A stretch of 43,420 bases of DNA from Lactiplantibacillus pingfangensis (GTDB taxonomy: Bacteria > Bacillota > Bacilli > Lactobacillales > Lactobacillaceae), in the NCBI RefSeq assembly GCF_005404945.1, contig NZ_BJDG01000028.1, positions 1-43,420 of the forward strand, written 5' to 3'. How positions within the stretch are numbered: the first letter of the stretch is position 1; the number at the start of each line of letters is the position of its first letter. This document shows, piece by piece, positions 11,669 through 25,492 of the stretch. The position numbers and the translations under genes are program-made. Under the pieces are notes generated by a model. It was not told where the DNA came from and did no database searches. It was given only the letters and a program-made list of their open reading frames with translations.

Positions 11669-11710
11669 GTGAGCTAAAGATTAAAAGGTGATACTGACTG
11701 TCGCTTCCGG

Positions 11711-11876
11711 TTGGGACGGATAACATGCGGTCGTGGGACCGGGCCAAGCCAAACACGTCTTGGCCCTCGCCCGGAACTCTTGCTAAAATCGCAAGTGTCC
11801 CGGCCCGTCCGTGGCATAAAATCGGCAAAACCGGCCGATTCAACGCCACCTTCACGACCGATGTTATCCGTCCCAA
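11711..11876. repeat. Structured intergenic element A (multi-branched, GC-rich)
   Basis: An outer stem of 16 exact base pairs (11711-11726 with 11861-11876) extends inward through CGGTCGTG/CACGACCG. Inside are a hairpin GGGCCAAG/CTTGGCCC with loop CCAAACACGT, a hairpin CCGGAACTCTTGC/GCAAGTGTCCCGG with loop TAAAATC, and a third, GTGGC/GCCAC, enclosing ATCGGC/GCCGAT. The sequence is much richer in GC than its surroundings. It is a homolog of element B at 17922. Short open frames here are by-products. The rest of the gap (11877-12030) shows nothing I can name. Confidence 0.8.
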
Positions 11877-12035
11877 TCTCCAGCTAACTAGGCTTCGTGG
11901 AAACAGGTAGAACCGTGCCACAGTGTCAACAAAATTAGTTGGTTTTAACTCAAACACGGCAGTCAAGGTGCTTATATGACTGAATTAGCGGGAATGACGA
12001 ATGAATTAGTTTGTAAGCCATAATTACGGCTTGAA

Positions 12036-17832: not shown

Positions 17833-17921
17833 GTTATTAAAGGTTGAAGACTGGCAATCGCTAGTAATTACCGTCATGTCAATGATTAGGACATGAAGAT
17901 TGGTTGACACGGCTGTCTCCA

Positions 17922-18093
17922 GTCGCCACTGATAACATGCGGCCGTGGGACCGGGTCAAGCCTGAGGAACGTTTTGGCCCTCGCCCGGAACCCTTGCACA
18001 AATCGCAAGTGTCCCGGACCGTCCGTGGCGTAACGCCGGCAAGGAACATGCCGACCCAACGCCACGGTCACGACCGATGGGATCAGCGGCGAC
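17922..18093. repeat. Structured intergenic element B (homolog of element A)
   Basis: The outer stem GTCGCCACTGAT (17922-17933) pairs with ATCAGCGGCGAC (18082-18093) with one mismatch. The inner helices follow those of element A: a GGGTCAAG/TTTGGCCC hairpin, a CCGGAACCCTTGC/GCAAGTGTCCCGG hairpin with loop ACAAATC, and GTGGCG/CGCCAC enclosing CGGCA/TGCCG. The conserved part begins GATAACATGCGG. The outer stem sequence differs from A yet still pairs. Flanking TCCRG words occur on both sides in A and in B. The remaining sequence to 18335 shows nothing nameable. Confidence 0.8.
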
Positions 18094-18335
18094 TTCCGGC
18101 TAATTTAACTGTTTTTAGGTTAGGTATAGTAGCGGCAGGCAGCGTTGGATTACCACATTAGGAAGGCTAAAGCTAGTTGAAAGCTACCTGATAACAATGA
18201 TAAGTTAGTGTCGATTGTGGTAGTAAGATGAAATGATGGGATTATTTTCCAGCTGATTAATTGGCCTAGTCCGCATGGAGACGGCAATCTTTGGAAAGAC
18301 TGACGAAATTGAGTCTGAAAGCGCAAATAAAATCC

Positions 18336-22840: not shown

Positions 22841-22879
22841 AAAAATACCGCCAACGAAAAATTAGTTGGCGGTATTTTT
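22841..22879. terminator. Bidirectional terminator between bglA and a convergent gene
   Basis: AAAAATACCGCCAAC (22841-22855) and GTTGGCGGTATTTTT (22865-22879) are perfect arms. The stop codon of the minus-strand gene (22862-22864) lies in the loop. A weaker CCCAC/GTGGG stem is at 22796-22824. Confidence 0.9.
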
Positions 22880-23410
22880 GTGTGCGACGATGAGTGCATT
22901 GGGGAGCATGTGCCGGACTTTCATAGCCGCATGATCGGTGTTGAGCTGCTTAATAATCGTGTCTAAATCGGTACTTTCAGTCATATCATCACGAAACGAG
23001 TGCACGACGAAACTATGATAAGTGACATTGCCGGTATTTGATAAGGCAAACCAGTTTGGCTGAACCAATTTAGCGCCTTTTTTGATGTCCATATCTGGCC
23101 AAACGAGGACTTTAGTGCCATCAGTGATTGGATACTGTTCAAGTTGCCAGCCCAAGTCAAAATTGGAGACTTCCTGCCAGCGCTGAATTTTACTATGTTT
23201 AATCGCATAGTAGACAATGCTACAATATTTCAGCTTCGGGCTACGGTTGAGTTCAGCTCTAGTGAGTGAGCGGTATTTAGGCTTCGTCTTGACCGCAGTT
23301 TTAGCAGGCTTCGTTGGTTGCTGCTGCGGTTGTTGGTGGAATAGCAACCAGCCCCCACCAATCGCCACAAGAATTAGTAGTGGCAGACCAAATCTAATGA
23401 TTTTTTTCAA
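22862..23410 (-). CDS. Secreted or membrane-anchored hypothetical protein
   Basis: A protein of 182 residues with an N-terminal membrane helix (about 5-24), a Gln/Pro/Thr/Lys-rich linker to about residue 45 (HQQPQQQPTKPAKTAVKTKP) and an extracellular domain of about 135 residues, including YCSIVYYAIKHSKIQRW. No family is recognised; it resembles small lactobacillar secreted proteins with no assigned role. It starts with TTG at 23410 with a weak AAGAAG upstream. Its 3' end reaches into the loop of the shared terminator. No partner gene is adjacent. Confidence 0.7.
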   Translation of the reverse strand: MKKIIRFGLPLLILVAIGGGWLLFHQQPQQQPTKPAKTAVKTKPKYRSLTRAELNRSPKLKYCSIVYYAIKHSKIQRWQEVSNFDLGWQLEQYPITDGTKVLVWPDMDIKKGAKLVQPNWFALSNTGNVTYHSFVVHSFRDDMTESTDLDTIIKQLNTDHAAMKVRHMLPNALIVAHKNTAN

Positions 23411-23480
23411 GATTAACAGACTTCTTTCAGTTGAAATGTGCGTTTTTAATGATCAGGATGTTTCTCTTGCCACTCTGGTT

Positions 23481-23607
23481 GGCCCGAAATCGGCTGGAAC
23501 GTGGTGGCCACGTTTGGAAGCCAAAAGGCGGTCTTCCAAGCCGGGCTTTTTCTAAGCCGGAAAATCACCGGCTAAGAAAAACGACACCACTGAGCCAATT
23601 TCGGACC
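23481..23607. repeat. Structured intergenic element C
   Basis: The outer stem GGCCCGAAATCGGCT (23481-23495) pairs with AGCCAATTTCGGACC (23593-23607) at 13 of 15 positions. Inside are GTGGT/ACCAC, a hairpin TTGGAAG/CTTCCAA with loop CCAAAAGGCGGT, and a long hairpin TTTTTCTAAGCCGG/CCGGCTAAGAAAAA with loop AAAATCA. It is homologous to the reverse complement of element D. The stretch 23411-23480 holds nothing clear. The element could be a non-coding RNA gene or a mobile repeat. Confidence 0.75.
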
Positions 23608-23668
23608 GCCCGGCGTTAGGAACAGTCTAAATTCGTGATTGATCAATAAAATGTGTATTTAGCCGAGA

Positions 23669-23806
23669 GGTTGGGTTCTAAAATGCTCAGCCATGAAATT
23701 GGTCTTAGTGCGGGCGATCTTCCCGGGCTTAGACCAAGGTCAGTTTTGAAGACCGCTTTTTGGCTTCAAAATGGCCCATGGCGTTCCAGCATTTTAGAAC
23801 TCAACC
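23669..23806. repeat. Structured intergenic element D (inverted homolog of C)
   Basis: The outer stem 23669-23687 pairs with 23788-23806 over 19 positions, with a single GU. Inside are GCCATG/CATGGC, TTGGTCT/AGACCAA with an inner CGGG/CCCG hairpin, and GTTTTGAAG/CTTCAAAAT. Its reverse complement aligns with element C, including GGAACG, the loop CCAAAARGCGGT and CTAAGCC, while the stem sequences differ. The rest of the gap (23807-24001) is AT-rich promoter sequence for the permease, including a TTTACC/GGTAAA hairpin. Confidence 0.75.
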
Positions 23807-24001
23807 GGCAGGCGGCAAGTATATGTCGTCAGCAATCGACTTAATTAATTAAATTTAGGCGCGATAATCACATAGAGAAATTATAAACTTATTATCAAAT
23901 TTCAACGTCCTTATTTTTTACGTTCGATAGTATAAAAGTTAACTGTTAATTTACCAAGAGTGGGGTAAATAACAACAATTCAGAAACGATGGGGCGAAAT
24001 A

Positions 24002-25492
24002 ATGGCGGAAAAAGAGAATAAGATTACATTAACCGCGTTAGTCATGATGATTTTTACGACGGTGTTTGGCTTTGCCAACAGTACGGTCGCGTTTTATCTC
24101 ATGGGTTACGCGTCAATTCTGTTTTATTTATTAGCGGCGGTGCTCTTCTTTATCCCGTTTGCATTGATGATGGCAGAATATGGCGCTGCGGTCAAATCGG
24201 ATGATGGCAGTGGGATGTATCAATGGCTTCAAGTCAGTGTTAATGCAAAGTTCGCGTTCGTTGGCACTTTCATGTGGTTTGCGTCCTATATAATTTGGTT
24301 GGTCTCGACGTCTGCTAAAGTTTGGATTCCCTTTACCACGACATTCTTTGGGAGCGACCAAACGCAGAAATTTGCGCTATTTGGTCTCAATGCGACGCAG
24401 GTAATCGGGATTTTGTCCTGTTTGTGGATGATTCTCGTGACGGTGGTGTCAATCAAAGGGGTCAAAGGGATTGTCCGCGTCACTAGTTTGGGCGGAATTG
24501 CCGTGACAAGTTTGAACGCGATTTTGTTGGTCGTTTCGGGGATCATTTTAGCCTTGAATCATGGTCAATTAGCCCAACCATTTGTGCACGCACTACATTC
24601 ACCCAATCCAGATTATCAGGCACCGGTTGGTCTCATGAGTTTCGCTGTCTTTGCTATTTTTGCCTATGGCGGTTTGGAAGTCTTAGGCGGGATGGTTGAT
24701 AAGACTAAGAATCCAGAAAAAACTTTTCCACGGGGTATTATGATTTCGGCGGTCATTATTACGCTTGGTTATGCGCTGGGAATTCTTTGCTGGGGCTTTA
24801 GTACTAACTGGGATGCGGTCTTGTCAGATCCGACAACTAATATGGGAAATATTAGTTATGTGATGATGAAAAATCTCGGTTATGTATTAGGTCAGTCATT
24901 AGGGTTAACCACGGCGACGAGTACCACGATTGGACTATGGTTTGCCCGATACACGGGGCTTGGGATGTTCTTAGCCTATTCTGGCGCCTTCTTCACGTTG
25001 ACCTATTCACCTTTAAAAACGTTGATTCTGGGGACCCCGAAGTCTTTATGGCCCAAGAAATTCACTAAATTAAATAAAAATGGCATGCCAAGTTACGCGA
25101 TGATTGTCCAATGTACAGTTGTCATTGTGATCATTTTGTTAGCCTCATTTGTGACCTCGGATGCTTCGGCGTTTTATAACATTTTGACTTTAATGGCCAA
25201 CGTTTCGATGACATTACCATACTTATTCTTGCTCTATGCCTTTCCTAAATTCAAACAAAATAAGGCGATTCATAAGCCGTTCGAAGTTTATAAATCACAG
25301 ACTTGGACAACAATTATTAGCTGGGTCGTGTTCGTGGTTGTTTTGGGAGCCAATATTTTCACCCTGATCCAACCAATTTTGGAACATGGCAAGATTCAAA
25401 GTACCATTTGGATGCTTGTTGGGCCAGTAGTCTTCGGCTTACTCGGCTGGATCTGGTATGAGGTTCGGACCCGCCAAACGGTCAAGCAATAA
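24002..25492 (+). CDS. yjeM: YjeM-family amino-acid permease (glutamate/GABA-type APC transporter)
   Basis: An APC-superfamily transporter of 496 residues with about 12 helices. The N-terminus ALVMMIFTTVFGFANST and the segment FAIFAYGGLEVLGGMVDKTK recall the YjeM subgroup, and the length fits. The substrate is not known; glutamate/GABA-type exchange is inferred from the family only. A GGGG ribosome site lies before the ATG. It is monocistronic and ends in a terminator at 25502. A long GC-rich pair of elements lies upstream, which may or may not be part of its mRNA. Confidence 0.85.
   Translation: MAEKENKITLTALVMMIFTTVFGFANSTVAFYLMGYASILFYLLAAVLFFIPFALMMAEYGAAVKSDDGSGMYQWLQVSVNAKFAFVGTFMWFASYIIWLVSTSAKVWIPFTTTFFGSDQTQKFALFGLNATQVIGILSCLWMILVTVVSIKGVKGIVRVTSLGGIAVTSLNAILLVVSGIILALNHGQLAQPFVHALHSPNPDYQAPVGLMSFAVFAIFAYGGLEVLGGMVDKTKNPEKTFPRGIMISAVIITLGYALGILCWGFSTNWDAVLSDPTTNMGNISYVMMKNLGYVLGQSLGLTTATSTTIGLWFARYTGLGMFLAYSGAFFTLTYSPLKTLILGTPKSLWPKKFTKLNKNGMPSYAMIVQCTVVIVIILLASFVTSDASAFYNILTLMANVSMTLPYLFLLYAFPKFKQNKAIHKPFEVYKSQTWTTIISWVVFVVVLGANIFTLIQPILEHGKIQSTIWMLVGPVVFGLLGWIWYEVRTRQTVKQ

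Follow-up and report, generated by a model that had tools for sequence, protein, structure and literature searches.

Arms C and D, an inverted pair of folded sequences in Lactiplantibacillus pingfangensis, are most likely the paired arms of a single mobile unit, and the pair is very probably an old copy of an IS982-type MITE whose arms have been kept foldable into a three-way junction. The pair lies in the window, the stretch of 43,420 nucleotides analysed here; this is a single contig of a draft assembly comprising 59 contigs (2.90 Mb). Direct support for this reading comes from the fold, its covariation, the arrangement of the arms in pairs, the terminal repeats shared with IS982 and the target duplications in relatives. 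Several lactobacilli carry this intergenic sequence in tens of copies each, and it has so far remained unnamed in the open-licence literature; the MITE reading accounts for such a large repeat family. Covariation by itself is no proof of an RNA gene. That a MITE transposed by a DDE enzyme keeps a three-way-junction fold over many genera is a puzzle, and if the fold is that of an RNA it would constitute a widespread undescribed RNA structure of Lactobacillaceae.

Judging from the better preserved relatives, the unit appears to consist, in order, of a short terminal inverted repeat (of the ACGCGTTGTGCTAGTT type), an arm, a spacer, an inverted arm and a second terminal inverted repeat. A DDE transposase of the IS982 family would move this unit in trans through the terminal repeats, duplicating 6-9 bp of the target, and each arm would additionally retain its capacity to form the three-way junction when single-stranded. 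If the unit is transcribed, the strand running outward from the spacer would fold as RNA, and such a fold may make the insertion tolerable to the neighbouring genes through processing or insulation; these steps are predicted from sequence comparison.

Arms C and D and their covarying fold

Arm C (positions 23465-23625, + strand) and arm D (23655-23818, - strand) were delimited by model R1, a covariance model trained on 26 L. pingfangensis copies. The two arms score 138.5 bits (E = 2.6e-41) and 159.2 bits (E = 9.7e-48), respectively, each being itself a member of the training set. The three-way-junction fold of arm C spans about 160 nt and comprises an outer stem of about 18 pairs (23477-23495 with 23593-23610), an asymmetric GGAAC/TG junction, an inner stem of six pairs and two hairpins, P2 (23507-23522 with 23530-23546) and P3 (base 23547-23553 with 23575-23581). 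Arm D is a diverged inverted copy of this fold. Folding of both arms on both strands gave four single-strand folds, each of which was better than 200 of 200 dinucleotide shuffles, with z-scores of -6.2 and -6.9 for the two strands of C and -7.6 and -8.7 for those of D.

The facing right ends of the arms are separated by a spacer (23626-23654), the centre of the proposed mobile unit. The initial annotation described the arms as lying head to head, 60 nt apart; the orientation stands, and the gap is corrected to 29 nt by the model boundaries, some 60 nt being the distance between the conserved cores. Its alignment of the reverse complement of D to C over the full length is borne out, with 92 of 158 aligned letters identical, as is its claim that the stems have altered with their pairing kept: 14 of the 46 modelled pairs differ on both sides between C and D, two differ on one side, 25 are identical and five are unpaired in at least one copy. 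The two arms can also, as it proposed, base-pair with one another, over 46 nt with 80% complementarity. Among 26 aligned copies, GCTGGAACG and CTGAG are invariant and the C after CTGAG is nearly so.

In the alignment of the 26 L. pingfangensis copies, 95.6% of the pair cells are standard and 26 of the 46 pairs show two-sided change; the covariation score was reached by none of 500 shuffles, and the number of further pair types by 36 of 500. When 77 matches at 51 loci, drawn both from the genus and from other genera, were aligned, 93.6% of the cells were paired and two-sided change was seen in 44 of the 46 pairs; this alignment was fitted to model R1, which favours pairing, and slid controls were 37-46% paired. 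The covariation score of the 77 matches was again reached by 0/500 shuffles, and their number of further pair types by 251/500; further pair types are in no clear excess in either alignment. Contrary to the outcomes that the initial annotation named as refuting its proposal, the fold has further copies with its pairing retained, both in its own genome and in relatives.

No match at the gathering score was found in the window with Rfam 15, and none at E <= 5 around the locus; tRNAs were the sole Rfam matches of 18 cross-genus arm loci, and a search of the open-licence literature found no description of the arm element. The proposal of an undescribed structured element holds in so far as the element covaries, is absent from Rfam 15 and from the literature searched, and is mobile. 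It is not supported for C and D as two separate elements, since their counterparts in relatives make up single transposable units, of which they are the arms, with IS982-type repeats and target-site duplications.

The pairing of arms is a general feature. In genome G001, 125 matches were listed; of the 26 neighbours among them with starts closer than 700 nt, 25 have their right ends facing. Across the named genomes, the same arrangement is seen in 49 of 54 neighbours closer than 600 nt, duplicates excluded, at loci of Lactiplantibacillus, Levilactobacillus, Companilactobacillus and an uncultured genome; this count leaves out two matches cut at locus ends (L267 and L274, 1-78), the addition of which changes nothing. 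Spacers between these right-ends-facing neighbours measure 3-529 nt. Units of G013 have a spacer near 400 nt and are homologous between copies over about 950 nt, and in G001 a second arm with an extra hairpin follows many copies, as judged by eye. A transposase gene between paired arms was sought and not found: in the named genomes, no ORF reaches 100 aa in the three right-ends-facing pairs whose gaps measure 300-600 nt, and the ORFs within three larger inter-arm gaps are not transposase-like by eye. At locus L005 (1641-2344), two arms 0.7 kb apart flank, by eye, a third arm-like sequence of another class, an arrangement suggesting nested insertions.

A BLAST search of the L. pingfangensis genome gave 25 matches with C and 42 with D, chance-level ones included, and model R1 gave at least 48 matches at E < 1e-35 (150 of 1016 candidates scored). 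The genome searches with model R1 scored part of the candidates, so that their counts are lower bounds. Matches were obtained in 19 of 21 Lactiplantibacillus genomes, L. pingfangensis included (139 candidates scored per genome), where the match counts of the genus genomes, G001 and G013 may include reverse-strand echoes. They were also obtained in at least 52 of 201 genomes and at least 11 of 40 genera of a family sample (14 candidates scored), and in at least 12 of 295 genomes of an order sample, in which the one match outside the family was weak (34 bits). A DNA pattern scan of the named genomes located the element, among the matches listed, in Lactiplantibacillus, Levilactobacillus, Companilactobacillus, Lacticaseibacillus and an uncultured 'Lactobacillus'. 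BLAST against phages and plasmids found nothing. In G001, 74 strong arm matches are spread over the rest of contig C1 and none falls at 1.47-1.91 Mb, where the GC skew switches sign; an arm-free zone at the replication terminus was considered for this region and dropped, as G013 has no such gap. A cluster of seven tRNA genes adjoins an arm in G016 (L097, 1953-2588).

Elsewhere in the window, the arm model matches 11709-11883 (+ strand) more weakly (32.2 bits, E = 2.4e-8). This sequence represents a related class of arm, whose 16-bp outer stem is perfect (11711-11726 paired with 11861-11876), and is possibly element A or B of the initial annotation. A second arm of this class was recognized by eye at about 17915-18105 (+ strand), where model R1 scores just 13.7 bits (E = 0.013) at 17966-18076.

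Terminal repeats, target duplications and the window locus

Many units in G013 are bounded outside the arms by an inverted repeat near ACGCGTTGTGCTAGTT. With one mismatch tolerated, this pattern has 71 matches in G013, and pairs of it lie 0.6-1 kb apart in several genomes. Repeats of the same type also bound insertion sequences of about 0.96-1.05 kb, and some repeat pairs enclose genes of about 290 codons; all four of the enclosed proteins tested match the NCBIfam IS982 profile at 206-269 bits (cut-off 130), as well as PF13612. The pattern ACGCGTTGTGCTAGTT agrees with the end consensus of IS982, 5'-AC(N)6T(N)5TT, given in the available text of PMC7335449.

Exact target duplications of 6-9 bp flank 10 of 20 repeat-bounded units of G013 and G011, which were chosen for intact ends among the matches listed, so that this share is not that of all copies; mismatched flank pairs, used as a control, gave no exact duplication of this length in 380. 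An arm match is present in 19 of the 20 units, including all ten with exact duplications, and both arms are present in 13. The arm fold was found in none of six loci with IS982 copies, which indicates that the arms are not left-over IS sequence.

Among 34 Lactiplantibacillus pairs (33 distinct, one unit being counted twice as L089 and L329), the repeat was found with at most four mismatches at one end or more in 21 and at both ends in 15, compared with 11 of 680 random 66-mers; these figures cover Lactiplantibacillus pairs only, and the four reference repeats were picked from the same data. Just two of the 15 pairs with both repeats have an exact duplication of at least 6 bp, against 1 of 210 controls, namely 9 bp in L303 (L. 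dongliensis) and 7 bp in L107. The arm types of L303 are, by eye, the same as those of C and D. Two of the four scored IS copies (L402 and L406) have no target duplication. Inspection by eye found no IS982-like character in the repeat of Companilactobacillus, and a vague one at most in that of Levilactobacillus.

A match to IS982 is absent from seven of the 19 arm-bearing genomes of the genus (G000, G002, G005, G006, G007, G009 and G012, L. pingfangensis being among the seven), the IS982 match of the unit-rich G013 is a single 60-bit fragment, and G019 possesses IS982 and no arms. Since IS982 is missing from seven of 19 arm-bearing genomes, the case is built on the ends and the target duplications and not on co-occurrence, and the MITE reading becomes slightly less likely; a missing helper is what would be expected if old copies outlive it. 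L403, L404 and further IS982 copies of the genus contain internal stops or are fragments, and the helper may be decaying in some species.

The window copy itself appears to be old. The terminal repeats expected outside arm C (23405-23464) and arm D (23819-23878) are unrecognisable: their local alignments to ACGCGTTGTGCTAGTT were equalled by 440 and 492 of 500 shuffles, respectively. In L004, a sister unit in L. pingfangensis, both terminal repeats are present, with 7 and 3 of 500 shuffles as good. No target duplication was found at the window copy, and a profile search found no IS982 transposase in the L. pingfangensis genome. We infer that the window copy is an old, immobile insertion, which would once have moved as the units of its relatives did.

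Two host genes outside the element flank the pair: an ORF of 182 aa (22862-23410, - strand), whose start lies towards arm C and which has a counterpart 72% identical at the same location in G002, and an ORF of 496 aa (24002-25492, + strand), whose start lies towards arm D and whose first 233 aa are matched in all 21 Lactiplantibacillus genomes. The initial annotation had suggested comparing strains for presence or absence at this site as a sign of mobility, and such a difference is seen among related genomes: the pair is present in G002, and none is found in G010 and G001 with the same neighbour genes. At an orthologous site of two related genomes, a unit is present in G004 and absent from G017. 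By eye, G017 retains an apparent outer repeat, which points to a possible loss of the unit.

Strand asymmetry and the maintenance of the fold

DDE transposases act on double-stranded ends, and the fold therefore needs a separate reason. The distribution of non-standard pairs bears on this reason. Read on the C strand, A.C combinations exceed G.T combinations by 107 to 59 over all 46 pairs, and by 74 to 24 among 3166 cells when two of the pairs and two reverse-strand rows are left out; because one of the two omitted pairs has the opposite asymmetry and the other is badly modelled, the asymmetry is considered moderate. In the outer stem, counts over 136 copies and 17 positions are 86 A.C to 39 G.T, with 39 to 7 at positions 5-14 and a reversal at position 15 (29 G.T to 8 A.C); all 136 copies had at least 11 of 17 Watson-Crick outer-stem pairs, a choice that favours paired copies, and with non-independent copies the asymmetry counts are not probabilities. 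An A.C on the C strand corresponds to G.T or G.U on the opposite strand. In both arms this opposite strand is the one running outward from the spacer, a hint that it may fold as RNA or single-stranded DNA.

Selection on the outward strand as RNA or single-stranded DNA is our preferred, sequence-based reading, and its main rival is templated correction of the palindrome. A more far-reaching version is offered tentatively, as one that we would sooner doubt than assert: the arm may be a functional structured RNA or folded single-stranded DNA domain carried on parasitic DNA, kept for its own sake across genera of Lactobacillaceae, read outward, aiding spread or shielding host genes, and mobile through IS982-type ends.

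Complementarity of the stems could also persist in the absence of selection, if the two sides of a stem were matched to each other by hairpin-templated repair or template switching. Such a process would suit the outer stems, which change fast and blockwise even between same-site copies of related species, and the rarity of G.U pairs in most stems. It is less readily reconciled with the unpaired junction bases GGAAC and TG, which show no variation among the 26 copies and are seen again in most of the cross-genus loci listed (the exceptions being L102 and L103), and with the excess of A.C over G.T on the C strand, moderate as this is. We regard templated correction as unlikely overall. The weaker asymmetry obtained with all 46 pairs makes it more likely, and the functional-domain proposal less so.

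The hairpins might instead be the single-strand substrate of a Y1 (HUH) transposase, as in REPIN/RAYT-like or IS200/IS605-like systems. A unit made of two folded sequences in inverted orientation does resemble REPINs, and the strand asymmetry would suit single-stranded DNA; however, the units with clear ends bear terminal repeats and 6-9 bp target duplications, and to our knowledge Y1 elements make no target duplications. Moreover, Y1 (PF01797) occurs in 13 of the 21 genus genomes, is missing from 8 of the 19 that bear arms, including the copy-rich G001, G004 and G010, and is present in the arm-less G018 and G019; this argument is weak alone, because IS982 fails the same test in seven of 19. 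The arms show no clear replication-strand bias in G001. A Y1 substrate is accordingly a very improbable account of the arms.

Gene context and comparison with known systems

It is similarly hard to believe that C and D are independent, riboswitch-like cis-regulatory RNA leaders of two divergent genes. Each arm of the window locus does face one gene start, and in 38 of 42 L. pingfangensis copies the left-side gene has its start towards the arm (by a simple ORF caller, with short-flank copies dropped), the common class having a gene start on its left side in 29 of 31. This orientation is not general, however: 11 of 28 loci show it within the genus and 15 of 23 in other genera; the downstream genes have no common function by eye (e.g. 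pyrH, asnS, argS, truB, lspA and dapB), a TTGACA promoter recognized by eye between arm and gene in several copies would place the arm outside the leader, and both the geometry of the pairs and the target duplications are typical of a transposon. A common downstream regulon was looked for among the genes beside the copies, and none was seen.

This common class of copies in L. pingfangensis, GCCATGAAC/GCTGTGAAC (L008 to L067), has 31 members, 29 of which share one orientation and lie upstream of a gene start. A-rich sequence and TTGACA adjoin the element in several of them, and copies of this class could be mobile upstream promoter elements. In G010, a similar class has the gene-start orientation in seven of eight copies (short-flank copies dropped), an apparent rule.

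The MITE reading of the C-D pair invites comparison with several known systems. In REPINs and RAYTs, amplification likewise concerns two folded sequences in inverted orientation; the arm unit differs from REPINs in its far larger arms, its terminal repeats with target duplications and its lack of a clear tie to Y1. ERIC, Correia/NEMIS, BOX and RUP are dispersed, intergenic, stably folding small bacterial repeats, from which the arm unit appears to be set apart by a three-way junction that covaries over many genera. Closer to it are the IS982 insertion sequences. According to the available text of PMC7335449, ISLpl4 of Lactobacillus plantarum and ISLhe1 belong to the IS982 family and make 8-bp target duplications; they share with the arm unit short target duplications as well as ends of the consensus AC(N)6T(N)5TT, whereas the arm unit has no transposase and carries two folded arms of about 160 nt. 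MITEs derived from IS982 are already known (PMC9769881), and we found none with covarying three-way-junction arms over many genera. The available text of PMC9769881 describes MITECca01 of Cardinium as an IS982-derived MITE of about 240 bp that originated from its parent IS. Like the arm unit, MITECca01 is non-autonomous, has IS982-type ends and is present in many copies; 'secondary structure' goes unmentioned in that text, whereas the arm unit is folded and its arms are not IS sequence.
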